A stretch of DNA of 33,264 bases. Origin: Actinomycetes bacterium. GTDB lineage: Bacteria > Actinomycetota > Aquicultoria > Aquicultorales > Aquicultoraceae. The notes under the pieces are model-generated. The model made no database searches, was not told the origin of the DNA, and worked only from the letters and a program-made list of their open reading frames with translations. Positions 779 to 25,893 of the stretch are shown here, in pieces. The translations under genes and the position numbers were made by a program. The DNA lies in the NCBI GenBank assembly GCA_021794835.1, contig JAJYQA010000002.1:1-33264 (forward strand). The letters run 5' to 3'. The number at the start of each line of letters is the position of its first letter. The stretch's first letter is position 1.

Positions 779-1036
779 CCTGCAGTGAAAAATTCAAATC
801 TATATCCGCACGAGCACGGTAGTTCACCAAATCCCATTCTTTGGTTAGCCTTAAAGAAACTGACAAACTTGCGCATTTTCCATTTTTATACCTGCAAATA
901 AGACGGATTTTTGCTAATATAGAAACCATTAACTTTATAGCCGGTATTTGTTGCTTAATACTTATAATTGGGTATTTTTGGAGACATCTACGTTAAAAGA
1001 GCAGGCATAAAACAGCGAATTAGAAAGGAGGAGCTT

Positions 1037-1717
1037 ATGGTTTTTACTGAAGATCAAAGGCGCGAGATTGACCAGTTGTTAAGTACCAACCTAGACCAGT
1101 CGGTTACCGTCGTATACTTTACTCAGGATGAACCAAGCATAGAATTGCCCGTTTCGGTAGAGGTAACTCCTTGTGAGTATTGCAAGGAAACCGAGGATAT
1201 GCTTAAAGAGCTAACCGGCATATCGGATAAGCTCAACATCGAAGTTTATGATTTCGTAAAGGACAAGGACAAGGTTGAGCAGTATGGAATTGAAGGGGTA
1301 CCTTCACTTGCCTTAGTAGGAGATAAGGACTACGGCATTAGGTATTACGGCATTCCATCAGGGTACGAATTTTCAGCCCTTTTGGATGGGCTTATAAATG
1401 TCTCGAAAAGGCATTCAAAACTAAGCGATAGCACACGGAAAGCGCTTGCCGATATCCAAGAACCCGTTCACATACGTGTTTTTGTCACACCGACATGACC
1501 CTATTGCCCGAGAGCAGCCAGTTTGGCTTACCAAATGGCAATGGAAAACGACAAAATCAAGGCAGAAGTCTTCGAGGCGTCCGAGTTTCCGGATCTTTCG
1601 ATGCGTTATTCTGTGATGGCAGTGCCCAAGACTGTAATTAACGAGAAAACCTCGGTCGAAGGCGCGGTTCCTGAGGCTTCTCTGCTTGCGGAGATCAAAA
1701 GCGCAATTGGCATATAA
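1037..1717 (+). CDS. protein disulfide oxidoreductase (glutaredoxin-like), probable selenoprotein
   Basis: Tandem thioredoxin-fold protein of the PDO family (thermophile protein disulfide oxidoreductase). Such proteins exchange disulfides in the cytoplasm through two CxxC sites. The first site is Cys46-Glu-Tyr-Cys49, followed by the cis-Pro loop in GVPSL. The second should be CPYC, but codon 154 is TGA (1496-1498), giving T-[TGA]-P-Y-C157-P-R. The same frame then continues through a normal second domain with a cis-Pro motif AVPK to a TAA at 1715. Total length is 226 codons, the usual family size. Known biology: bacterial UGA can be read as selenocysteine when a SECIS hairpin follows, and one is present here. 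I therefore infer Sec154 in a U-P-Y-C site. The start at ATG 1037 follows AAAGGAGGAG. Alternatives are a nonsense mutation of TGC or TGT, or a sequencing error. No selenocysteine machinery gene is in the window. Confidence 0.82.
1499..1545 (+). promoter_or_regulatory. candidate bacterial SECIS element
   Basis: Immediately after the in-frame TGA, bases 1501-1508 can pair with 1537-1544 (seven Watson-Crick pairs and one G-U wobble). An apical stem pairs AGCCA 1516-1520 with TGGCT 1524-1528 around the loop GTT (1521-1523). The loop opens with G, and the distance from TGA to the loop is 22 bases. Both fit the published bacterial SECIS pattern (loop 16-37 nt after UGA, G among its first bases). 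Folding was done by eye. Confidence 0.65.
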
Positions 1718-14436: not shown

Positions 14437-15315
14437 TTAAGCGTTCTTACTGCGCAAGGCAAATCTTGCTATCAAATTTAAAGCTATAACGAGTACGATG
14501 AGGATAAGTGCAGCAGCCCAGGCCTGTGCATGCTGCGCCTTGTAAGGGGACATAGTATAATTAAAGATCTGCAATGGAAGGGCGGCTATGGGTTCGGTAA
14601 TCGATCTGGACCAGTAACTATTACCGAATGCCGTAAATAACAAGGGTGCTGTTTCACCTGCGACGCGCGCCACTCCGAGCATAACGCCGGTTATAATTCC
14701 CTTTGCTGCTGCCGGCAGGACAATCTGCAGGACTGTCCGCCATTTTGGGAAGCCAAGAGCGTAGGCCGCTTCCCGAAGACTGTACGGAACCAGGTTAAGC
14801 ATTTCCTCAGTTGCCCGAATTACAGTGGGAATCATAATGATAGCCAGCGCAACACCGCCGGCTATCGCGGAGAAGTTTCCCATCGCCAGTACCAGGGCTG
14901 TGTAGACGACAATGCCGACAATGATCGATGGGATTCCCATTAAAACATCCGTTGTAAAACGGACGGCGTTTGCGAGCCAGCTATGGCGGTCGTACTCACT
15001 AAGGTAGATGGCAGAAAGAATCCCGACCGGAATCCCGATGATGCTTGAAACAAAAATAAGGATTAAGGTGCCGACTATCGCATTGGCCACCCCACCTCCA
15101 ACTTCGCCAAACGGTTTAGGTAATTCGGTAAAGAAACTTAAGTTGATTGCAGTGGCTCCTTTTAGCACGACATAACCTAGGACCATAAACAATGGAGTTA
15201 CTGCAATGAGCGTCGCTAAAATTAGCAACCCGGACATAACCCAGTCCTTATACCGGCGGACAGCGTAGTTGCTTGGCAAATCTATTGTAACGGCGTTATC
15301 GGCTGGATCCATCAT
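14437..15315 (-). CDS. pstA: phosphate ABC transporter permease PstA
   Basis: A 292-residue inner-membrane permease with about six transmembrane segments. The EAA loop that contacts the ATPase is visible as REAAYALGFPKWRTVLQIVLP. PstA and PstC form the channel of the high-affinity phosphate importer. The start ATG overlaps the pstC stop by four bases (ATGA), so the two are translationally coupled. No pstB follows here; the ATPase gene lies at 24.4 kb on the other strand. The gene ends convergent to the cyclase gene with only 16 bases between. Confidence 0.93.
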   Translation of the reverse strand: MMDPADNAVTIDLPSNYAVRRYKDWVMSGLLILATLIAVTPLFMVLGYVVLKGATAINLSFFTELPKPFGEVGGGVANAIVGTLILIFVSSIIGIPVGILSAIYLSEYDRHSWLANAVRFTTDVLMGIPSIIVGIVVYTALVLAMGNFSAIAGGVALAIIMIPTVIRATEEMLNLVPYSLREAAYALGFPKWRTVLQIVLPAAAKGIITGVMLGVARVAGETAPLLFTAFGNSYWSRSITEPIAALPLQIFNYTMSPYKAQHAQAWAAALILIVLVIALNLIARFALRSKNA

Positions 15316-16256
15316 ACTACGTGCCCTCCCTTTGTGTTTCTAGATACCGACCATACAAGTAGCCTAGCCAGGGTATTAAAGATCAATGAAATACCGAATA
15401 GGATCAAGCCAATCTCCACAAGTGAACTCCGGTAGAGTGGATAGGTGGCTTCCGTGAACTCATTGGCGATTACACTAGCTAGAGTATTTGCAAGGGCAAA
15501 AAACGAGGTATGGATGTATGAACTGTTTCCAATCACCATCGTTACCGCCATGGTTTCACCCAGGGCGCGCCCTAACCCAAGCATTATACTACCCACGATG
15601 CCTGACTTAGCGTGGGAGATAACGGCTGTCCTAATCATCTCCCATCTGGTGGCTCCCAGGGCAAGTGCCGCCTCGCGCTGGGTATTTGGTACGGCTGCCA
15701 TTACATCTCTTGAAATTGCGGCAATTGTCGGCAAAATCATGATTGCCAGGATGAGACCACCGGCTAGCAGGCCAACTCCCAAGGGTGGTCCCTGAAAGAG
15801 GGGTAGGGAACCAAACATATGGTTTAACAAGGGCTCGGCAGTATTTTGCAGCCATGGTGCGAGCACAAAAATTCCCCACAGACCATAAACGACACTTGGA
15901 ATAGCGGCCAGCAGCTCGGCGAGGAACGAGACGACGGTTTTAATTGAAGACGGCGCCATCTCATTTAGAAAAATTGCTAATCCTAAGCCTGTCGGTACCG
16001 CCAATATCAGAGCTAAGAGCGATGTAACGAGTGTTCCGTAGATAAATGGTAAAGCCCCAAATTGCTCCTTTAAGTTTGGATCCCATATTTTACTGGTAAT
16101 AAAAGACCAGCCAAACTTTGCTATTGATAGCTTGGATGCTGCAATCATCTGCCAGGCAATAAATATCATCAGCGTTAATACCAGTACTGCCATTGTAAGG
16201 GCCAGTATTTTAAGTGTGTGGTCTCCAATCGAAAGTCGCGTCCTGCTTCTTAGCAC
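15312..16256 (-). CDS. pstC: phosphate ABC transporter permease PstC
   Basis: A 314-residue permease, partner of PstA. It has a first transmembrane segment at about residues 16-38, a periplasm-facing domain with the FIYGT region, five more membrane segments, and the EAA loop REAALALGATRWEMIRTAVI. LGRALGETMAVTMVIGN is a strong PstC signature. It starts at GTG 16256 with AAAGGA upstream. A 13-bp hairpin separates it from pstS, a layout that lets the binding protein be made in excess of the permeases. Confidence 0.93.
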   Translation of the reverse strand: MLRSRTRLSIGDHTLKILALTMAVLVLTLMIFIAWQMIAASKLSIAKFGWSFITSKIWDPNLKEQFGALPFIYGTLVTSLLALILAVPTGLGLAIFLNEMAPSSIKTVVSFLAELLAAIPSVVYGLWGIFVLAPWLQNTAEPLLNHMFGSLPLFQGPPLGVGLLAGGLILAIMILPTIAAISRDVMAAVPNTQREAALALGATRWEMIRTAVISHAKSGIVGSIMLGLGRALGETMAVTMVIGNSSYIHTSFFALANTLASVIANEFTEATYPLYRSSLVEIGLILFGISLIFNTLARLLVWSVSRNTKGGHVV

Positions 16257-16329
16257 TTTATCATTCCTTTCTCAGTAGCTAAGCTTGATTAGTATGCCCA
16301 TACATACTTCACTGTATTTTTTAACGCCA

Positions 16330-16360
16330 TGAAACAACCCAGAGAAACTGGGTTGTTTCA
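16330..16360 (-). terminator. pstS-pstC intergenic hairpin (attenuator or processing site)
   Basis: A perfect 13-bp stem (16330-16342 with 16348-16360) and a 5-base loop. No T tract follows immediately on the minus strand, so partial termination or protection of the pstS mRNA end is more likely than full termination. Confidence 0.65.
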
Positions 16361-16413
16361 CATTGTCAATATTTACAGGCAGAATCAGAGATTATTCTAT
16401 CTGTAAAGGAAGC

Positions 16414-17511
16414 TTAACTTCCGTAAGTTACCGTTCCCAGCATTTTATCGATACGACCTACCATGCTTTGTGGCAGTTTAGCGTAATCAAGGCTCTCTGA
16501 GTAATTCTGGCCGTCGTGGACCATCCACTTAAGCAGCTCAACCAGAGCCTTCCCCTTAGTTTTGTCTTTCTGGTGCTGGTACAGGAGAACCCAGCTAAAC
16601 CCAGAGATCGGGTAAACCTTTTCGCCTGGTGCATTGACGATCATTACTCGCATATCGTCCGGAATAGTTGCCCCAGCGGCTGACTCAGAAGCGCCTTCTA
16701 AGCTAGGCGATACCCACTTGCCATCCTTATTTTTCATCTGGGCATAGGTAATATTGTTCTGGATTGCGTAAGCCAACTCAATATATCCTATTGTACCGGG
16801 TGTCTGCTGGATTGCTTGCGCTACACCGGGATTTCCCTTTCCACCAACGCCGCCTGGCCAGTTAACCGAGGTACCACTGCCGATCTTTTCCTTCCACTCG
16901 GGGCTGATGCTGCTTAAGTAAGTGGTAACTATGTAGTTGGTTCCACTACCATCCGAGCGGTGGGCAGTATTAATAGCTAAATCTGGAAATTTTACGCCTG
17001 GGTTGTCCGCCGCGATACGCGGGTCGTTCCAGTTCTTGATTTTTCCTAAGAAGATATCGGCAAGTACATCCGGTGCAATTTTAATTTTTTTTGGGACACC
17101 AGGTACGTTGTAGGCAATTGCCACCGCTCCCAAAGTTATCGGAATGTGAAGGATTTTGCCTCCCTTGGCTGCCGCCATTTGTTCATCCTTCATGGGGGCG
17201 TCTGATGCCCCAAAGTCGATCGTCATATCCGACAACTGCTGGATACCGGCGCCACTTCCTACTCCTTGATAGTTAACATTGATATTTGGGTTAACTTTTG
17301 GATACTCAGCGAACATTTTAGTAAAGAGGGGCAAGTCAAATGTAGATCCGGCACCGTTAAGCATTACCTGCTTCCCGGATGCTGTACCCACGCTATTTCC
17401 TGTATTGGTCCCGGTACTGCCGCAGCCGGATACAGCAATGGTCATGACAATGGCTAACAAAGCTAGTGCGCCAATCAAGACCTTATTGCGTTTTGCTAAT
17501 TTCGCTAGCAC
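16414..17511 (-). CDS. pstS: phosphate-binding lipoprotein PstS (copy 1)
   Basis: A 365-residue substrate-binding lipoprotein. The signal peptide ends in the lipobox AVSGC with Cys30 as the lipidated residue. The mature domain opens with the PstS motif GAGSTFDLPLFTKMF and contains NYQGVGSGAGIQQL, FGASDAPM and HRSDGSGT, the residues that wrap phosphate. It delivers phosphate to PstC-PstA from outside the membrane. The start is GTG at 17511, nine bases after AAAGGAGG. It heads the pstS-pstC-pstA transcript and has a clear 11-bp repeat array upstream (17646-17684), so control by the adjacent PhoB/PhoR pair is likely. Confidence 0.93.
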   Translation of the reverse strand: MLAKLAKRNKVLIGALALLAIVMTIAVSGCGSTGTNTGNSVGTASGKQVMLNGAGSTFDLPLFTKMFAEYPKVNPNINVNYQGVGSGAGIQQLSDMTIDFGASDAPMKDEQMAAAKGGKILHIPITLGAVAIAYNVPGVPKKIKIAPDVLADIFLGKIKNWNDPRIAADNPGVKFPDLAINTAHRSDGSGTNYIVTTYLSSISPEWKEKIGSGTSVNWPGGVGGKGNPGVAQAIQQTPGTIGYIELAYAIQNNITYAQMKNKDGKWVSPSLEGASESAAGATIPDDMRVMIVNAPGEKVYPISGFSWVLLYQHQKDKTKGKALVELLKWMVHDGQNYSESLDYAKLPQSMVGRIDKMLGTVTYGS

Positions 17512-17574
17512 AGATTTTTTCCTCCTTTATCTCTTAAAAATTGTTTTGAGAAATTTTTACAAGTTCTCTACAAG

Positions 17575-17588
17575 GGGCTGGCCAGCCC
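17575..17588. repeat. perfect 14-bp palindrome in the pstS leader
   Basis: GGGCTGGCCAGCCC reads the same on both strands, 64 bases before the pstS start. It could be an mRNA hairpin or a dimeric-repressor site. Confidence 0.4.
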
Positions 17589-17645
17589 AAATCTATATAC
17601 ATATCAACGTGTTAAATAGAGGATAGGGCTTATTTGGGCCTGCGT

Positions 17646-17684
17646 GGTGAAAAAGATGTAACCATTTTGTAAAAAAAATGTTAA
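17646..17684 (-). promoter_or_regulatory. PhoP/PhoB box array upstream of pstS
   Basis: On the minus strand TTAACA (17684-17679), TTTACA (17673-17668), GTTACA (17662-17657) and TTCACC (17651-17646) recur at exactly 11-base steps. Direct repeats of TTNACA with 5-base spacers are the known PhoP box of Gram-positive bacteria. The array overlaps the last codons of phoR. A -10-like TATCCT follows at 17625-17620. Confidence 0.75.
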
Positions 17685-19048
17685 ATCGAAAAACGCACGG
17701 TAAACGTGCTACCGATGCCGAGGGAGCTATCAACATCGATTGTCGCATTATGGTTTTCGGCGATGTGCTTGACGATTGAAAGCCCAAGGCCAGTGCCGCC
17801 AGTCTCGCGACTCCGGGCTTTATCCACGCGGTAGAATCGCTCAAAAATCCGGGGGATTTCGCGTTTGGCCATGCCTATCCCGTCATCGGCGATGACTAGA
17901 TCGATATAGTTTCCATTACTCGCCAGCTTAACCTCAATCCTGCCGCCGGAGGGCGTATATCTTATAGCGTTATCGATTAGGTTTCTAATAAGAGTCGATA
18001 ATTGCTCTTTGTCCCCAAAGATCGGGGGGATATTTTCGGGGACGTGCTCGTTAAGCTCAAGTTTCTTACTTGCCGCAAGCTGGGTGAAGCTTGATGTAAC
18101 TTCATGCACAAGCTCTCCCAAATCCGTCGGGGTCTTCTCAGCTATGCCCCGTGGAGACTCGATCTTTGAGAGGTCGATTAGCTCGCGCACCAGGTTGATT
18201 AGCGTGCTTAGCTCTTTATCCAGCCTTTTGATAAATATCCGGCTCGATACCGGGTCGGTATCGATGCTGCGAAGAAGTGTCTCGGAGAGAAGCTTCAAGC
18301 CGGTAAGCGGGGTTTTTAGCTCGTGCGATACATTTGCCAAAAAATCTTTACGCAACCTTTCAGTCTGCTTTTGTCTGGTAATATCCCTTATTACAACAAG
18401 CGTTTGCTTTTCACCATCGCTGTTGGTTATCGGAAGTATTCGGATTCTAAGTTGCCGGAAAGGGTCTTGGAAGTTTAGCTCATCGACGACTTCCCGTTCG
18501 GATTTCATAGAATCAATTATGGCGTGATCCAGATCAAAACTTCTAATCGAGTAGATTACTGGCCTGCCGACAATTTCGGAGGCGGGAACCTGGAATATTC
18601 TTTCAATCGACGGGTTTGTAAGTATGACCTCGCCGTCTTTGCTTAGGAGCAAAATTCCCTCGGCCATGTTATCTAGGATGAGTTCGGCCTTAGTTTTTTC
18701 CGAGCGAAGCTCGTCAATTCGCTCCTTTAGTTTCTCCGCAAGGTTATTTAGCGACTTTGAAAGTTCACCTATCTCGTCTTCACCCATGGGCGGAAGCCTA
18801 TGCTCAAGATCATCGTTTGCTATTTGCTCGGCCATCTTTGTCATCTGCTTAAGCGGCGAGGTAAACGAGCGCACTATCGCGTGGCTGATGAAGATTACCA
18901 GTACCAGCGCGCTGACCGCCATGGTCAACATAACGAGACTAAACTCATCTAATGAGTGGATGAAAATTTTTAGGATAAGACCCGCTATTAAAAGCACCGC
19001 CATAGCAAGGAGCGCGTAGCTCGGGATGAGTTTTTTTCCTATTCGCAT
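17681..19048 (-). CDS. phoR: phosphate sensor histidine kinase PhoR
   Basis: A 455-residue membrane sensor kinase. Two membrane segments (about residues 9-28 and 37-58) have almost no external loop between them. A HAMP linker (about 60-112) follows, then a PAS domain (about 120-230), HisKA with the phospho-accepting His242 in VSHELKTPL, and a HATPase domain with N, G1 (ADDGIGM), F and G2 (GGTGLGLSIV) boxes. Lack of a sensor loop fits PhoR, which senses through the Pst-PhoU complex. It overlaps the response regulator by about 10 bases and was assigned as PhoR from that pairing and the pst context. Confidence 0.9.
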   Translation of the reverse strand: MRIGKKLIPSYALLAMAVLLIAGLILKIFIHSLDEFSLVMLTMAVSALVLVIFISHAIVRSFTSPLKQMTKMAEQIANDDLEHRLPPMGEDEIGELSKSLNNLAEKLKERIDELRSEKTKAELILDNMAEGILLLSKDGEVILTNPSIERIFQVPASEIVGRPVIYSIRSFDLDHAIIDSMKSEREVVDELNFQDPFRQLRIRILPITNSDGEKQTLVVIRDITRQKQTERLRKDFLANVSHELKTPLTGLKLLSETLLRSIDTDPVSSRIFIKRLDKELSTLINLVRELIDLSKIESPRGIAEKTPTDLGELVHEVTSSFTQLAASKKLELNEHVPENIPPIFGDKEQLSTLIRNLIDNAIRYTPSGGRIEVKLASNGNYIDLVIADDGIGMAKREIPRIFERFYRVDKARSRETGGTGLGLSIVKHIAENHNATIDVDSSLGIGSTFTVRFSI

Positions 19049-19737
19049 GCAGTCTTCCCCTCGGCCTGAAATTTATAGCCGAGACCGTGTACGGTGTGGA
19101 TATAGGAGAACTTAGAATGCTCTTCGATATTGGTACGAATCCGTCTTATATGAACATCGATAGTACGGCTTGAAGCGTAAAATTCGTATCCCCAAACCCG
19201 CTCAGCCAGGTCTTGTCTCGTAAATAATACACCGGGCTCGGATGCAAGAACGGTGAGAAGTTGAAACTCCTTCAAACGCAGGCGAATTTCCTTTCCATCG
19301 ACCTTAACGGTATGTTTGGTTAGATCAAGCTTGAGATCACCAATCTCGAACATGGACGGTTTATCGGTCTTTTTAAGTATGCGTTTCAGGTTTGCATTTA
19401 TGCGGGCAACCAGCTCTTCGATGCTAAATGGTTTTGTAATATAATCATCCGCACCTACGCTAAAGCCCTTAAGCTTACTGCGCTGATCCTCAAGGGCGGT
19501 GATCATGATGATTGGGATGTTGTCGTCAAATTCTCTGACCCGTTTGCTGACTTCAAAGCCGTCCATCTCGGGGAGCAGGAGGTCAAGTAAGATAAGGTCA
19601 GGATTATTTTCTTTTACCGCTTCCAGTCCCTGTATGCCATTTTCTGAGGCTGTAACGCTAAAGCCCGCCCCTTTAAGGCTGTATTCCAGGGTTTCTCTAA
19701 TTAACGGGTCGTCTTCAATCACGAGAATCTTGGCCAT
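19039..19737 (-). CDS. phoB: phosphate response regulator (PhoB/PhoP, OmpR family)
   Basis: A 232-residue two-domain regulator. The receiver domain has the acidic pair Asp9-Asp10, the phosphorylated Asp52 in LLDLLLPEMDG, the Thr in MITALED and the Lys in ITKPFS. The C-terminal winged helix (about 125-228) shows the OmpR-type recognition region SRTIDVHIRRIRTNIE. It probably binds the 11-bp repeats found near pstS and other genes here. The ATG lies about 15 bases after AAAGGAG, a long spacing. Naming as PhoB or PhoP depends on lineage; the function is inferred from the pst neighbourhood. Confidence 0.9.
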   Translation of the reverse strand: MAKILVIEDDPLIRETLEYSLKGAGFSVTASENGIQGLEAVKENNPDLILLDLLLPEMDGFEVSKRVREFDDNIPIIMITALEDQRSKLKGFSVGADDYITKPFSIEELVARINANLKRILKKTDKPSMFEIGDLKLDLTKHTVKVDGKEIRLRLKEFQLLTVLASEPGVLFTRQDLAERVWGYEFYASSRTIDVHIRRIRTNIEEHSKFSYIHTVHGLGYKFQAEGKTACE

Positions 19738-19762
19738 AAGTTGCTCTATTTGCTCCTTTGTT

Positions 19763-19775
19763 TTACCTGCCTATA
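19763..19775 (-). promoter_or_regulatory. shared 13-base promoter-region element before phoB
   Basis: Minus-strand TATAGGCAGGTAA lies 26 bases before the phoB start. The identical 13-mer lies before the second pstS (20914-20926). It may contain a -10 box. Confidence 0.4.
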
Positions 19776-19875
19776 GAGTAGGTTAATTATAGCAATTTGA
19801 CAATACACGTCATTATGAGGATGAAGCGATGTGACAACCATTAAACCATAAGTCAAAGACGCTGATCATTTTACA

Positions 19876-20847
19876 TTACTTGATCTCTTTAAGACTCTTA
19901 TCGTAGTCCTTTTTATTAAGTGGAAAATAACCTGCTTTTGAGACCAGCTCTGAATTAGTTAGGTAGAATTCTACGAATGCCTTTACCTCTGGCCTATCCA
20001 GTGCTTTCTTGTTTAGATAAATAAGGAGCGGTCTGGAGAGTGGCTTATAAGTACCGTCGTTAATTGTTTGTTCGCTTGGCTTGACCGGGCCGGTCCCACC
20101 GTCAACTGCGAGAAGACCCAGTTCGCTCTCGTTTTGTTTATAGTATGCGTACCCCAGGAAACCAAGAGCACCCTTATTTCCCTCAACACCCTGACCCACA
20201 ACATTATAATCCTCGCAAACATTGTAGTCGGTGCGAATTGCCTTTTCCTTGCCGTTGATTGTTTCGGTAAAGTAATCAAATGTACCGTGCGCGCTGCTCG
20301 GTCCGTACAGCACGAGTTTTTGATCCGGCCAATCAGCCCTAATCTGCTTCCAATTGTTGATCGTGCTGCCCGGTTCCCAAATTCTCTTGAGTTCTTCGGT
20401 GGTGATAGATTTTGCCCAGGTATTGCTCTTACTGACAATAATCGAGACGCCGTCCTTGCCGACAGGGATTTCCATATACTCAATTCCGTTTTTTTCTGCA
20501 TCGGCCATTTCGGTTGCCTGGATTAGCCGGGAGGCATCGCTGATGTCGGTTTTGCCCGCGGTAAACTTCTTAAACCCGGCGACGGTACCGGAACCTCCAA
20601 CCGTGATGATGATGTTAGGATTTTCCTTCATAAACTCCTCGGCCATTGCTTCACTAATCGGCAGCACCGTACCTGAACCATCAATCTTTATGGTTCCAGA
20701 GAGTTCCAATTTTTTAGTAGTGGAGTTTGATGCCGAGCTTGAAGTCTTAGAACCCCCACAACCAACTACTGTAAGGCCGAGTATAGCTAACAATGCGATA
20801 ACGACTGAAACTTTTCTTGCTTTTGCCGTACGCGAAACGTAATCCAT
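19876..20847 (-). CDS. pstS: phosphate-binding lipoprotein PstS (copy 2, SphX-like)
   Basis: A 323-residue second phosphate-binding lipoprotein. The lipobox is LTVVGC with Cys30 lipidated, followed by a Ser-rich linker. The binding domain has IDGSGTVLPISEAMAEEF, VGGSGTVAGFKKF, ISDASR and GPSSAHGTFDYF, the arrangement of SphX-type proteins. It clearly differs from copy 1 in sequence. It may bind phosphate with different affinity or serve sensing. ATG 20847 follows GAGGAGGTTAA. It is monocistronic, upstream of phoB-phoR on the same strand, and shares a 13-base promoter element with phoB. Confidence 0.9.
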   Translation of the reverse strand: MDYVSRTAKARKVSVVIALLAILGLTVVGCGGSKTSSSASNSTTKKLELSGTIKIDGSGTVLPISEAMAEEFMKENPNIIITVGGSGTVAGFKKFTAGKTDISDASRLIQATEMADAEKNGIEYMEIPVGKDGVSIIVSKSNTWAKSITTEELKRIWEPGSTINNWKQIRADWPDQKLVLYGPSSAHGTFDYFTETINGKEKAIRTDYNVCEDYNVVGQGVEGNKGALGFLGYAYYKQNESELGLLAVDGGTGPVKPSEQTINDGTYKPLSRPLLIYLNKKALDRPEVKAFVEFYLTNSELVSKAGYFPLNKKDYDKSLKEIK

Positions 20848-20913
20848 TTAACCTCCTCAGTTTTAAACCATAGTGCCTCTGTATAGCGTAAATCATTTTA
20901 GCTTTTCTATATG

Positions 20914-20926
20914 TTACCTGCCTATA
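20914..20926 (-). promoter_or_regulatory. shared 13-base promoter-region element before the second pstS
   Basis: Minus-strand TATAGGCAGGTAA, identical to the copy before phoB, 67 bases before the gene start. Confidence 0.4.
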
Positions 20927-20977
20927 AAGCAAGGCGATAGTTACACTTTTTACAAATTTATCGGCAGCTAACCAAAA

Positions 20978-21018
20978 CGGTATGAGGATTGGTTCTTAAG
21001 TTTTCTCTAGCCATACCG
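20978..21018. other. inverted repeat in the 465-base gap between pstS2 and the HD-GYP gene
   Basis: CGGTATG (20978-20984) and CATACCG (21012-21018) can pair around about 27 bases. The gap (20848-21312) also holds the promoter element of pstS2 and a repeat array at 21149-21198. I see no coding frame or recognised RNA in it. Confidence 0.3.
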
Positions 21019-21148
21019 GATAAATAAACTGCTTGTCCTGGCCCTGGGCAATATCTCACTTGCAGGTAGTTGACCATTACATCCAACTTGTTTAAAGAAA
21101 CTTATGCGGTTGCTTGGTAATTAGTATCGTGTTTTTGGATACGGAAAT

Positions 21149-21198
21149 GTTTAAATCTCGGTTTAATCTTCGTTAAATAATTGTTAAGCGTTGTTAGA
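21149..21198 (+). promoter_or_regulatory. PhoP-box-like repeat array upstream of the HD-GYP gene
   Basis: GTTTAA, GTTTAA, GTTAAA, GTTAAG and GTTAGA start at 21149, 21161, 21172, 21183 and 21193, steps of 12, 11, 11 and 10 bases. The units are TTWAA rather than the TTNACA seen before pstS, so the match is weaker. Confidence 0.45.
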
Positions 21199-21312
21199 AC
21201 TCGCCTAAAAGGAGATTGTCTGGCCTTAGATAATTCTCAAGCTTAGCTGCCAATATTTCGATATATCCTACATATTAATATGAAACTACCAGAATTATAA
21301 GGGGATTTACGC

Positions 21313-22764
21313 TTGTCGGTACGCTTAAAACTGTATACTACGATTGTTATATTATCTGTTCTTGTAGCGATCACTGGCGCTATTGGTTTAGTAAGCCTGA
21401 ACGAGTATCAGGACAAGGCCGAGAAGCTGGAATCAGCTGTTAAAATGGTGAACAAGCTCCAGGAACAAAGGGTCCTATTTCACCAGCTCAACCGAGACCT
21501 TTATAGCTTTCTCGGAACAGGGGATGACAAATACGCGATGTTCGTGTTCTTAAAGGTCAACAACCTTGAGAGCGATCTCAATCAACTGGCCAAGAACTCA
21601 GAGTTCTCCGAATCCAGAGAGGGTCTAGCAGTAACTATCCAGAGTCTTGAAAAGCTAAAGCAAAAAGTTTATAAAACCCTGAAGGCTTTTCATAACCAAG
21701 ACTATGCGACTGCAAAGGCCGAGACCAATGACATCAACGATCTTAGCACCCTGCTGTCAAACAGGCTTGCAAACTCTTCGTTACTCATAGAAAACAAATC
21801 AACAAATCTTTATGCAGAGAGCCAAAGGGCGCATGGCCGATATAGCTACATGTTAATACTGGCGATTATTATCATCATTTTCTTGGGTATCGTGCTCGGT
21901 TATATATTGATTAGAGGCGTCGCTTCGGCCACAAAAGAGCTTCACAGCGCAGCCATGGAATTTGCCGGCGGCAACAGGCGCAGAAGAATCACCAAGCGTA
22001 TGTCGGGCGAGTTTGCCGTGCTTTGTGAGTCATTCAACCACATGGCACAGCAAATCCAGCAATCTGAGTTGAAGATGAGACAATGGAACGATGAGTTAGA
22101 AAAGGAAGTTGATGCAAGAACCAAGGAACTAAAAGAAGCTAACCGGTATATAGAGAACCTCTATATCGAAACGATAACGGCACTTATTGAGGCCATAGAA
22201 GCAAAGGATAGCTATACCCGAGGTCACTCAGAGAATGTTGCTAAGTACGCGCTGGCAATCGGCAAAAAGATGGGTTTGACTAACTCTGAAATTGAGGAGT
22301 TGCAGATAGCTGCTCTTTTACACGATGTAGGCAAGATCGGGATCAGGGAAGAGATTTTGAATAAGCCTTCGAAACTAGATGATCAAGAATATAGACACAT
22401 TAAGAGGCACCCCAGTATTTCATACCAGATTATTGGTCGCATACCTGGCATAGGACAGGTAGCTGAAATAGTGCTTTATCACCACGAGAGATACGACGGT
22501 CACGGCTACCCTAAAGGTTTAAAGGGAGACAAAATACCTCTAGGCGCACGAATATTAGCCGTCGCAGATACGTTTGATGCTATGACCTCAAACAGGAGTT
22601 ATCGCAATGCTTTGCCTTTGGATGTAGTAAGGCAAGAGCTATTGAGGAACTCGGGCGCTCAATTCGACCCGAAAATCCTTGAGATTTTCATCGAGATCTT
22701 TGACAGTCTTGATTTAAAATCTTCGCCACCGGAGAACCTCTCTGCTAATAGCTCATCTGCCTAA
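21313..22764 (+). CDS. membrane sensor HD-GYP phosphodiesterase
   Basis: A 483-residue protein. A membrane segment at about residues 8-28, a four-helix external sensor with coiled-coil character (30-175), a second membrane segment (about 177-200), a HAMP linker (200-252), a helical spacer, then an HD-GYP domain from about 285. Catalytic motifs are complete: HSENV, LHDVGKIGI, RHP, HHERYDGHGYP (the GYP signature) and ADTFDAM. HD-GYP proteins degrade cyclic-di-GMP to pGpG or GMP. The TTG start at 21313 has AAGGGGA upstream. It lies inside the phosphate island behind a Pho-box-like array, suggesting a link between phosphate state and cyclic-di-GMP, which is inference. Confidence 0.88.
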   Translation: MSVRLKLYTTIVILSVLVAITGAIGLVSLNEYQDKAEKLESAVKMVNKLQEQRVLFHQLNRDLYSFLGTGDDKYAMFVFLKVNNLESDLNQLAKNSEFSESREGLAVTIQSLEKLKQKVYKTLKAFHNQDYATAKAETNDINDLSTLLSNRLANSSLLIENKSTNLYAESQRAHGRYSYMLILAIIIIIFLGIVLGYILIRGVASATKELHSAAMEFAGGNRRRRITKRMSGEFAVLCESFNHMAQQIQQSELKMRQWNDELEKEVDARTKELKEANRYIENLYIETITALIEAIEAKDSYTRGHSENVAKYALAIGKKMGLTNSEIEELQIAALLHDVGKIGIREEILNKPSKLDDQEYRHIKRHPSISYQIIGRIPGIGQVAEIVLYHHERYDGHGYPKGLKGDKIPLGARILAVADTFDAMTSNRSYRNALPLDVVRQELLRNSGAQFDPKILEIFIEIFDSLDLKSSPPENLSANSSSA

Positions 22765-22843
22765 CCGGCATGTGAAGTTAAGGGCCCGGTCCTATAAAAC
22801 CGCCAAGTTTTAATATCACGGCCGTTTGCAAATTTTTAAGCGA

Positions 22844-22882
22844 TTAACAAATTTATAACAAATAGTTTTCATGCTTTTAACC
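22844..22882 (+). promoter_or_regulatory. PhoP-box-like repeat array upstream of arsC
   Basis: TTAACA, ATAACA, TTTTCA and TTAACC begin at 22844, 22855, 22866 and 22877, exactly 11 bases apart. A -10-like TAAGAT follows at 22903, the same 20-base gap as at pstS. Confidence 0.5.
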
Positions 22883-22914
22883 AACACCTTCGCCCTGATC
22901 GTTAAGATGGTAGG

Positions 22915-22996
22915 TGACAAGACGCATGCAGAAGCCTCCTTAAATCACTTCTGCACACATCCGGGAAAACGGCCTATCTCTCGCAGGCCGTTTTTC
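22915..22996 (+). ncRNA. candidate small RNA or attenuated leader ending in a terminator
   Basis: Downstream of the repeat array lie a hairpin with an 8-bp stem (TGCAGAAG / CTTCTGCA) and a strong rho-independent terminator, with no convincing coding frame. The result would be a transcript of about 80 bases. It could be a small RNA, or a leader whose terminator controls arsC about 100 bases further on. Both ends are inferred. Confidence 0.3.
22966..22996 (+). terminator. rho-independent terminator
   Basis: AAAACGGCCT (22966-22975) and AGGCCGTTTT (22985-22994) form a 10-bp stem with a 9-base loop and a run of five T. Confidence 0.8.
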
Positions 22997-23099
22997 TCTC
23001 TGGGGATGATTGCTATTGGTTTGTGTTATTCTAAGAGACGCCTGCGATTGGATGACATATGCAGCAGGCGAGACTGTGGACATAAGGATTGGGGATATC

Positions 23100-23533
23100 A
23101 TGCAGAACAAAAACCATAAAACGAGGATTCTTTTCTTGTGCACCGGCAATTCGGCCCGTAGCCAGATGGCCGAAGGCTGGGCAAGGTATCTAAAGGGCGA
23201 TGTGATTGAGCCATATTCGGCCGGTATTGAGGCTCACGGAGTTAATCCCTATGCCATAGCTGTTATGAAGGAGGCCGGTGTTGATATCTTGGGGCAGCGG
23301 TCCAAGCTTGTGGAAGAAATCATCGATACCGAGCTTGATTACGTAGTGACCCTTTGCGGCCATACCGATGAAACTGCCCTATTTTCTCAGGCAAGACAAA
23401 AAGAATTCACGTAGGGTTCGACGACCCGGCCAAAGCTACCGGGGATGAAGAGGCTATCTTAATGGCGTTTCGCAGGGTGCGGGGCGAGATTAAGACATTT
23501 GTTGAGGGTCTACCGGACTCGCTTGAGAGGTAA
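23100..23533 (+). pseudogene. arsC: arsenate reductase ArsC (low-molecular-weight phosphatase type), frameshifted
   Basis: Thioredoxin-coupled ArsC reduces arsenate to arsenite using three cysteines. The first part is intact: phosphatase loop LCTGNSARS with Cys14, and TLCGH with Cys86. After DE at codon 91 the frame breaks. Reading one base back from 23372 restores [15 protein letters not shown], with the third redox cysteine, and then [23 protein letters not shown] to a TAA at 23531. A single A missing from GAAAAC explains this. Without the shift the product stops at 23414 and lacks the third cysteine. It could be a real pseudogene, a homopolymer sequencing error, or less likely slippage (no canonical slippery heptamer). 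The ATG at 23100 follows AAGGATTGGGG. Confidence 0.85.
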
Positions 23534-23536
23534 CAC

Positions 23537-24037
23537 CTATTCCTTTGCTTTGTCGGGTGAGTAGATGATGGCCAGAGTGCGTACAGCCGCAACAGCTAAC
23601 ATTACACCGCCCATAGCAAGAATTTTCATCGGCTCAAAATTAGACTCCGAGAAGCGTATCCAGACTTCCTTGAAGGTGAAGACCAGCGTGGCATCCGCAA
23701 TGTACGTAATTTTTACTCGCTCCTCCTTGAAGTAATCAAGAAGAACTCGAAAGAGTTCCACAAATATAAAAATCACCATTACGTCGTTTAAGAGATTACG
23801 GAATACTAAAGAGAAATCTTTGGTAAGAGTAGATGGTAGGCGGATGAATACCTGGGCGGTGCCGGTTAAAAGGGCGATAAGAACAGCGATAATAAGGGCA
23901 TCGATTATAATATTGCTTACCGATCGGTAAGATTTAACCAGCACGCTCTTACGGCAATCGGTCAAAAATATCTTTCTTAAAATGACACTTCCTATCCTTA
24001 TATCTCTCTTATCAAAAATTCTATCTGTAATTGCCAT
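23537..24037 (-). CDS. psiE: PsiE-family phosphate-starvation-inducible membrane protein
   Basis: A 166-residue protein with four hydrophobic segments (about residues 43-65, 80-105, 112-130, 138-160). It resembles the PsiE family: the IIIDALIIAVLIALLTG helix, the LLNDVMVIFIFVELFRVLLDYF segment and the final AAVRTLAIIY are typical. PsiE is induced by phosphate starvation in enterobacteria; its biochemical role is unknown. AGAAGGG lies before ATG 24037. Its place beside pstB and arsC supports phosphate-linked expression. It ends four bases from the arsC remnant, convergent. Confidence 0.75.
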   Translation of the reverse strand: MAITDRIFDKRDIRIGSVILRKIFLTDCRKSVLVKSYRSVSNIIIDALIIAVLIALLTGTAQVFIRLPSTLTKDFSLVFRNLLNDVMVIFIFVELFRVLLDYFKEERVKITYIADATLVFTFKEVWIRFSESNFEPMKILAMGGVMLAVAAVRTLAIIYSPDKAKE

Positions 24038-24080
24038 TTTCCCTTCTTTTAGCTAGGCCAGTTAAACCTTTTAATGGCAC

Positions 24081-24108
24081 GGCAGGGGTTTATGGAGGAA
24101 CCCCTGCC
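24081..24108. repeat. 10-bp-stem hairpin between psiE and pstB
   Basis: GGCAGGGGTT (24081-24090) and AACCCCTGCC (24099-24108) enclose an 8-base loop in the divergent psiE-pstB interval. It would lie in the psiE 5' leader. No T run follows. Confidence 0.5.
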
Positions 24109-24188
24109 CGCGTATTGTGCATTAAAACCCTATACAGCTAATTTAGTAGTTAAAAGGGTTTACGTGGTTAAAGACACGAAAATTATTC

Positions 24189-24237
24189 GTTAGAAATTTG
24201 TTAAATCTTACTTATAAAGGATTTTATTGCTTATACT
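24189..24237 (+). promoter_or_regulatory. PhoP-box-like repeats and -10 box of pstB
   Basis: GTTAGA, GTTAAA and CTTATA start at 24189, 24200 and 24211 (11-base steps), with a weaker upstream GTTAAA at 24167. TATACT at 24232-24237 could be the -10 box. Confidence 0.5.
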
Positions 24238-24405
24238 GTAGGTGTAACGCGGTACCCGTATTCGTTGACGCCGATCACTATAGTAATCTACATCGGCATG
24301 TGGCAATATGGGCAAGAGTTGCTTACAATAGGTAAATAATTGATAATAAGTCTGGGTGGTATATATCGTATGGAACGTATTTTGGATGTAAGGGAGACCC
24401 ATGGT

Positions 24406-25230
24406 ATGTCGGGCGATATCATAAGAACCGAACCCGTGGGGATTTCGTTCCCACGGGATAAGGTAAAAATTAAATTTAAAAATGTCTCATTTTATTACGG
24501 CTCATTTAAAGCCATCGATGATGTCTCTTTTGAGCTTCCCAAAAATCGCGTAACTGCTTTCATTGGTCCATCTGGTTGTGGCAAGTCAACTGTTCTTCGC
24601 ATCATCAACCGTACTAACGAGATAGCGATGAGCACCCGCCTAGAAGGTGAAGTGTTTATCGATGGAGTCAATGTTTACAAAAATGGTACCGACCCGGTGC
24701 TACTTCGTAAGCGTGTCGGCATGGTTTTTCAAAAGCCGAATCCTTTTCCAAAGAGTATTTATGAAAACCTTGCGCTTGGCCCAAAAATCCATGGGACAAA
24801 GAAGAAAAGCGATCTTGATGACTTAGTTGAGGAGACTCTTAGAAAAGCCGCGCTCTGGGATGAGGTTAAGACCACGCTTCATAAATCAGCAATACAGCTC
24901 TCCGGCGGCCAGCAGCAACGGCTATGCATCGCAAGGGCACTGACCATTAAGCCCGAAGTTCTTCTTATGGATGAACCATGCTCGGCACTTGACCCGATAT
25001 CCACCCAAAAAATCGAGGACTTAATCGATACATTAAAGAGCGACTACACTATAGTCATGGTTACTCATAATATGCAGCAGGCGGCGCGTGTTTCTGATTA
25101 CACTGCATTTTTCTTGGTCGAGGAGACTGGCGCTCCAGGACGACTAATCGAGTTTGCCGATACATCAACTGTATTTACTAGGCCAACAAATAAAAAGACC
25201 GAAGATTATATAACCGGGCGTTTCGGCTAA
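24406..25230 (+). CDS. pstB: phosphate ABC transporter ATPase PstB
   Basis: A 274-residue ABC ATPase that powers PstC-PstA. Walker A is GPSGCGKST, the Q-loop is in [10 protein letters not shown] (a PstB hallmark), the signature is LSGGQQQR, Walker B is [12 protein letters not shown], and the switch His is in VTHNMQQA. I chose ATG 24406 because AGGGAG lies 9 bases upstream; ATG 24370 and TTG 24340 are in-frame alternatives that would add 12 or 22 residues. The gene starts a transcript with phoU, apart from pstCA, but it is the only pstB in the window. Confidence 0.93.
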
Positions 25231-25260
25231 GAGATGCCCGATAGAAGGGGTGCTCCATAA

Positions 25261-25893
25261 GTGAGGAAGGGCTTTCATGAAGAGCTCAGTGACCTTCATA
25301 ATTCAGTTTTTAAGATGGGCTGCCTCGTAGAGGAGGCAGTTAAAGATGCCGTCATTTCAATTGGTGATTCTAACCCTGTGCTGGTCGAGAAGGTTATCGC
25401 GGGGGACAATAAAGTCGATCGTATCTTTGACGCAATCGAGAACAACTGCTTCATGATGCTTGCGACTCAGCAGCCAGTTGCAAGGGATCTTCGCCTTATT
25501 GCCTGCAGTATTAGGGTTATAAGTGACCTTGAACGAATGGGGGACCTTGCAATTAACATAGTAAAGTACTCTCCCGGCGCGCACAACGGCGAGCCGCTTT
25601 TGGCCTCAGACATACTTATAGGAATGGGAAACGAGGTCTCGGTTATGATTGCCGAGACTTTGAAGGGGTTTATAGGTCTAGATGTAGATATTGCCGAGCG
25701 AATTGAAGAACTCGACGAAAAAGTAGATGTTATGTACTTAAAGCTATTTGAGCAGCTCTTTGATTGCGGGGGACTAAACGACCTGCGCTCGGCAATTAAG
25801 TCTGCCTTTGTCGGTCGCTATCTTGAGCGCATTGCAGACCACTGCGTAACTATCGCAGAGCGAGTCAACTTCCTTGTCCAGGGGATGGCCTAG
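25261..25893 (+). CDS. phoU: phosphate signalling protein PhoU
   Basis: A 210-residue cytoplasmic protein of two PhoU three-helix bundles. Each carries the metal-binding E/DxxxD pattern, visible as DLERMGDLAINI in the first half and RYLERIADHCVTIAE in the second. PhoU links Pst activity to PhoR and keeps the kinase off when phosphate is plentiful. The GTG start at 25261 has AAGGGGTG upstream and lies 30 bases after pstB. A palindromic terminator follows. Confidence 0.93.
   Translation: MRKGFHEELSDLHNSVFKMGCLVEEAVKDAVISIGDSNPVLVEKVIAGDNKVDRIFDAIENNCFMMLATQQPVARDLRLIACSIRVISDLERMGDLAINIVKYSPGAHNGEPLLASDILIGMGNEVSVMIAETLKGFIGLDVDIAERIEELDEKVDVMYLKLFEQLFDCGGLNDLRSAIKSAFVGRYLERIADHCVTIAERVNFLVQGMA

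Follow-up and report, generated by a model that had tools for sequence, protein, structure and literature searches.

Protein disulfide oxidoreductases (PDOs) of Pyrococcus furiosus, P. horikoshii, Aquifex aeolicus, and Aeropyrum pernix (structures 1A8L, 1J08, 2AYT, and 2HLS, respectively) are built from two thioredoxin-fold domains, and the C-terminal active site of 1A8L reads VTPTCPYCP. The N-terminal domain of AhpF has the same double thioredoxin fold and is fused to a flavoprotein. A selenocysteine (Sec)-containing form of such proteins has already been catalogued. Reviews of 2026 and 2022 list the family TIGR02187 with a UxxC motif as a "homolog of AhpF N-terminal domain (Grx-like domain protein)", give ABB15282.1 as an example, credit the family to work from 2004, and regard its function as largely uncharacterised (PMC13188914, PMC9312934). 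Two such proteins, from Carboxydothermus hydrogenoformans and Symbiobacterium thermophilum, appear in a paper of 2006 (PMC1794560). The 2026 review files the family as predicted with high confidence and adds Asgard archaea to it (PMC13188914).

Here, a PDO gene with an internal TGA is examined in a stretch of 33,264 nucleotides (the window) that opens contig JAJYQA010000002.1 of the Actinomycetes bacterium assembly GCA_021794835.1 (family Aquicultoraceae). A sequence-only reading of this DNA had suggested a Sec residue in the C-terminal active site and had not been aware that any PDO with a U-x-x-C site was described; as a claim of novelty, the second of these statements does not stand against the TIGR02187 entries in the three papers cited above. 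The window PDO is an additional member of an already catalogued selenoprotein family, with which it shares the family model and the UxxC motif, and it differs from the catalogued members in that it and its relatives come from new genomes.

The gene and its product

The PDO gene occupies positions 1037-1717 of the forward strand and comprises 226 codons followed by TAA (1715-1717). Its ATG at 1037 lies five bases past a Shine-Dalgarno-like GGAGG (1027-1031, forward strand), and a search near the gene for promoter or terminator patterns returned none above chance. The frame is interrupted once, by a TGA at 1496-1498 (forward strand) that forms codon 154, in the context ...FVTPT-U-PYCPRA... when read through. 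Re-examination of these three bases in the window returned TGA rather than TGC or TGT, and the presence of this TGA within the PDO frame is confirmed as real, with chance ruled out. The genome carries a single PDO copy. Elsewhere in the window, ORF translations point to what is apparently a phosphate-uptake cluster at 14437-25893, with two PstS-like proteins, PstC/PstA-like permeases, a response regulator, a sensor kinase, and PstB- and PhoU-like proteins. At 23100-23600, an arsenate-reductase-like gene (PF01451) shows an apparent frameshift after ...VTLCGHTDE, reflecting either a sequencing error or a broken gene.

The read-through product matches the NCBIfam model TIGR02187 (short name PDO_seleno_TRX) with 267.4 bits, over a cut-off of 185, and the match runs from residue 5 to residue 222 (model positions 2-208 of 209) and thus spans the TGA. 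The earlier description of an unbroken frame of 226 codons with family-like sequence downstream is borne out by this match. An AlphaFold2 model of the protein (mean pLDDT 91.8) superimposes on the crystal structures from Aquifex, Pyrococcus, and Aeropyrum with TM scores of 0.86-0.90 (0.90 for the P. furiosus PDO), at 33-36% sequence identity to 1A8L, 1J08, 2AYT, and 2HLS, and sequence search agrees with structure in pointing to PDOs. The N-terminal domain of AhpF fits less closely (TM 0.74-0.83). Profile and model together thus predict that the product is a two-domain PDO, with a CxxC-type site in each thioredoxin-fold domain: CEYC at residues 46-49 (1172-1183, forward strand; alignment A1) and UPYC at residues 154-157. 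In the model, U154 lies between a strand (residues 144-150) and a helix (residues 157-170), at the thioredoxin active-site place, where the nucleophilic Cys of this fold normally stands; 1A8L has Cys where the window gene has UGA. Cys157 (1505-1507, forward strand), the likely resolving residue of the UPYC site, and Pro197 (1625-1627, forward strand) are both invariant in alignment A1, and Pro197 is presumed, from what is established for the thioredoxin fold, to be the cis-proline opposite the C-terminal active site.

Conservation of the TGA and selection beyond it

Close homologues were sought in a sample of 397 genomes of the phylum, among which six more genomes of the window's family were found to carry the PDO gene (67-90% identity). 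In all seven genes, the window's included, the single internal stop is TGA, never TAA or TAG, and it falls at the same codon. Five distant homologues (33-40% identity) also have TGA in the residue-154 column of alignment A1, so that this column holds TGA in 12 of 15 homologues and the redox Cys in the other three (L024, L025, and L026). The proposed placement of the TGA at the first Cys of a CPYC-type site is confirmed by the alignment as well as by direct reading, and the look at related genomes proposed with it likewise turned up orthologues with UGA at the same place. A class-level search around one distant relative returned no further UGA members. A separate scan with the motif VTPTCPxCP fetched 80 Cys homologues, mostly from other phyla; having queried the Cys motif, it is uninformative on how frequent the Sec form is in those phyla.

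Against the nearest relative (G002), dN/dS was 0.07 before the TGA and 0.08 after it, and in two other comparisons with estimable dS it was 0.07 and 0.12 after the TGA. The downstream values (0.07-0.12 where dS was measurable) are similar to those upstream and are low, indicating that the part beyond the TGA has been kept as protein. Another possibility is that the UGA is programmed for dual output, with Sec read-through giving the full protein and termination under selenium shortage giving a functional N-terminal domain. In its favour, Sec insertion has to compete with termination at UGA, and the UGA is placed after a complete first domain. However, no sign of selection for the short form was seen, and that form would stop just inside the second domain, past the strand at 144-150. 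Dual output is improbable, and it could coexist with a Sec-containing PDO.

Near the PDO gene, four relatives encode a thioredoxin-like protein with an in-frame TGA in FWTY[T/S]-U-INCIRT, a UxxC site; the TGA lies just before position 16243 (L070), 9308 (L071), and 10254 (L074) on the forward strand and just after 2421 (L073) on the reverse strand. Its sequence suggests that this is likely a second selenoprotein. The matching region in the window's genome would fall beyond the start of the contig.

A SECIS-like hairpin downstream of the UGA

A SECIS-like apical hairpin, AGCC-AGUUU-GGCU, is formed by positions 1516-1528 (forward strand), within a more extended fold at 1501-1544 (forward strand; minimum free energy of -16.2 kcal/mol for 54 nt). 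The consensus among the close genomes is RGYC-AGUUU-GGCY. Its outer pair varies: most relatives have G-C, one has G-U, and the window has A-U. The loop starts about 21-22 nt past the UGA, and its first two positions include a G, with U coming next. PMC13188914 describes a consensus model of the bacterial SECIS, which was applied here as a loop of 3-9 nt, an upper stem of at least 4 bp, a G in the first two loop positions, a distance of 16-37 nt from the UGA, and an energy of at most -7.5. All 12 UGA members satisfy the stem, loop, and spacing constraints, their 54-nt folds after the UGA range from -12.9 to -23.9, and in the distant UGA members the hairpins are stronger and almost identically placed. 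A loose form of the pattern was also passed by 56 of the 80 Cys homologues, with weaker stems; the hairpins of the 12 UGA members are stronger than those of the 80 Cys homologues (p=5e-5).

Compared with synonymous codon shuffles, the fold after the TGA in the window's genome was not significantly more stable (p=0.08), and the invariance of synonymous codons proved better evidence for a SECIS than this single-sequence folding energy. The seven close genomes share 60 conserved residues for which the code offers at least four codons. Just two of these are encoded by one codon throughout, and these two are neighbours, codons 162-163 (AGT TTG), in and next to the hairpin loop. As so many Cys homologues pass it, the SECIS pattern by itself is weak evidence, and it is the invariant loop codons that carry weight.

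Selenocysteine machinery and an apparent assembly gap

The window's assembly (G000; 2.04 Mb in 44 contigs, 97.8% complete) yielded no match to selA, none over the cut-off to selB or selD, and no true tRNA-Sec. The best tRNA-Sec match (47 bits) is actually a tRNA-Ser(UGA). The genes are present in its nearest relatives: of the two genomes of the same genus, G001 has selB, selD, tRNA-Sec, and a selA-like ORF, and G002 has selB and a selA-like ORF on a 3.6-kb contig, with no selD found over the cut-off. In the relatives that were read, selD, the selA-like ORF, and selB are clustered near hypA, hypB, and tatC, with tRNA-Sec adjoining selB in G001 and G007; G001 possesses the complete set, hypA, hypB, and tatC included. 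selB and selD were assigned by search matches, and selA, hypA, hypB, and tatC were named by sequence and position only. Full-length selD matches in relatives (L053-L060) contain one TGA each, and selD is apparently itself a selenoprotein gene there.

The window's genome also encodes two FdhA proteins (about 900 bits each; G000:C31:49966-51972, locus L076, and G000:C34:57071-59077), the frames of which are intact but for one TGA each. In the one that was read, the TGA stands at HCARL-U-HSPT, the position usual for formate dehydrogenases.

One explanation of these observations is that the lineage truly lost Sec decoding, so that the TGA terminates translation and what remains is either a product with one domain or a pseudogene of recent origin. 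The absence of selA, selB, selD, and tRNA-Sec from an assembly of this completeness speaks for such a loss. However, the missing block extends to the neighbours of the cluster, as TatC, HypA, HypB, an HD protein, and Asp23 have no orthologue-like match in the assembly either. An amidohydrolase farther from the cluster does have a match (76%), on the 4.46-kb contig C21, and this contig starts inside the DUF72-like gene that, in G007, separates the amidohydrolase from the sel cluster. Moreover, the PDO and both FdhA frames are intact save for one TGA each, and dN/dS of the PDO after the TGA, against G002, is 0.08. A true loss with termination at the TGA is therefore very unlikely. Equally doubtful is that the sel cluster is genuinely lost while the UGAs of the PDO and FdhA genes are conserved, which would imply a very recent loss or another route by which UGA is read. 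Because selB is present in both genomes of the same genus, the whole neighbourhood is missing, C21 breaks at its edge, and two FdhA genes carry single in-frame TGAs, the absence of the cluster looks like an assembly gap. An absence of Sec machinery, which the sequence-only reading had named as a refutation, thus literally holds for the assembly, with a gap as its best explanation.

Metagenome assemblies carry errors at a general rate, and nothing else favours the view that the TGA is a sequencing or assembly error, or is read as another residue through a change of code. This view is scarcely credible, given that the same TGA recurs in 12 genomes that differ greatly in base composition and that TGA terminates three of the 28 window ORFs checked as well as the TGA-bearing PDO genes L028 and L030, each of which must therefore use TGA in two senses.

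Proposed mechanism

We conclude with high confidence that the TGA at 1496-1498 specifies Sec as the leading residue of the C-terminal active site, because it is conserved and followed by a region under purifying selection and by a SECIS-like hairpin whose loop is invariant, and because the nearest relatives have Sec genes and the window's genome has other genes with in-frame TGA. These lines of evidence also uphold the Sec assignment of the sequence-only reading. The frame, family, conservation, selection, and hairpin on which this explanation is based were computed. The gene thus very probably encodes a two-domain PDO whose N-terminal site is of the Cys-Cys type and whose C-terminal site is of the Sec-Cys type, the UGA being read by SelB; Sec insertion, the direction of the redox reaction, and the redox partner are the inferred parts of this account. 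The protein is presumably cytosolic. SelB and Sec-tRNA(Sec) would decode the UGA, steered by the hairpin downstream. By analogy with the family, Sec154 would be the probable nucleophile, attacking or exchanging with substrate disulfides, and Cys157 would resolve the intermediate. The N-terminal C46EYC49 site probably relays electrons between Sec154 and a flavoenzyme of the thioredoxin reductase type. A thioredoxin reductase gene (386 bits) is present in the genome, on a different contig from the PDO gene. In two distant genomes (L025 and L026), a Cys-type PDO is fused behind a thioredoxin-reductase-like FAD domain, resembling the NCBIfam family AhpF_homolog, whereas the window PDO, with its CxxC and UxxC sites, stands alone, unlike the flavoprotein-fused domain of AhpF.

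Implications

The finding leaves concepts unchanged and extends a selenoprotein family with sparse documentation to new genomes. Annotation that treats TGA only as a stop would truncate these genes. Natural Sec/Cys pairs of the protein are now to hand for biochemistry. Close relatives with the gene have it in the Sec form as a rule, and this form is met again in other parts of the phylum.
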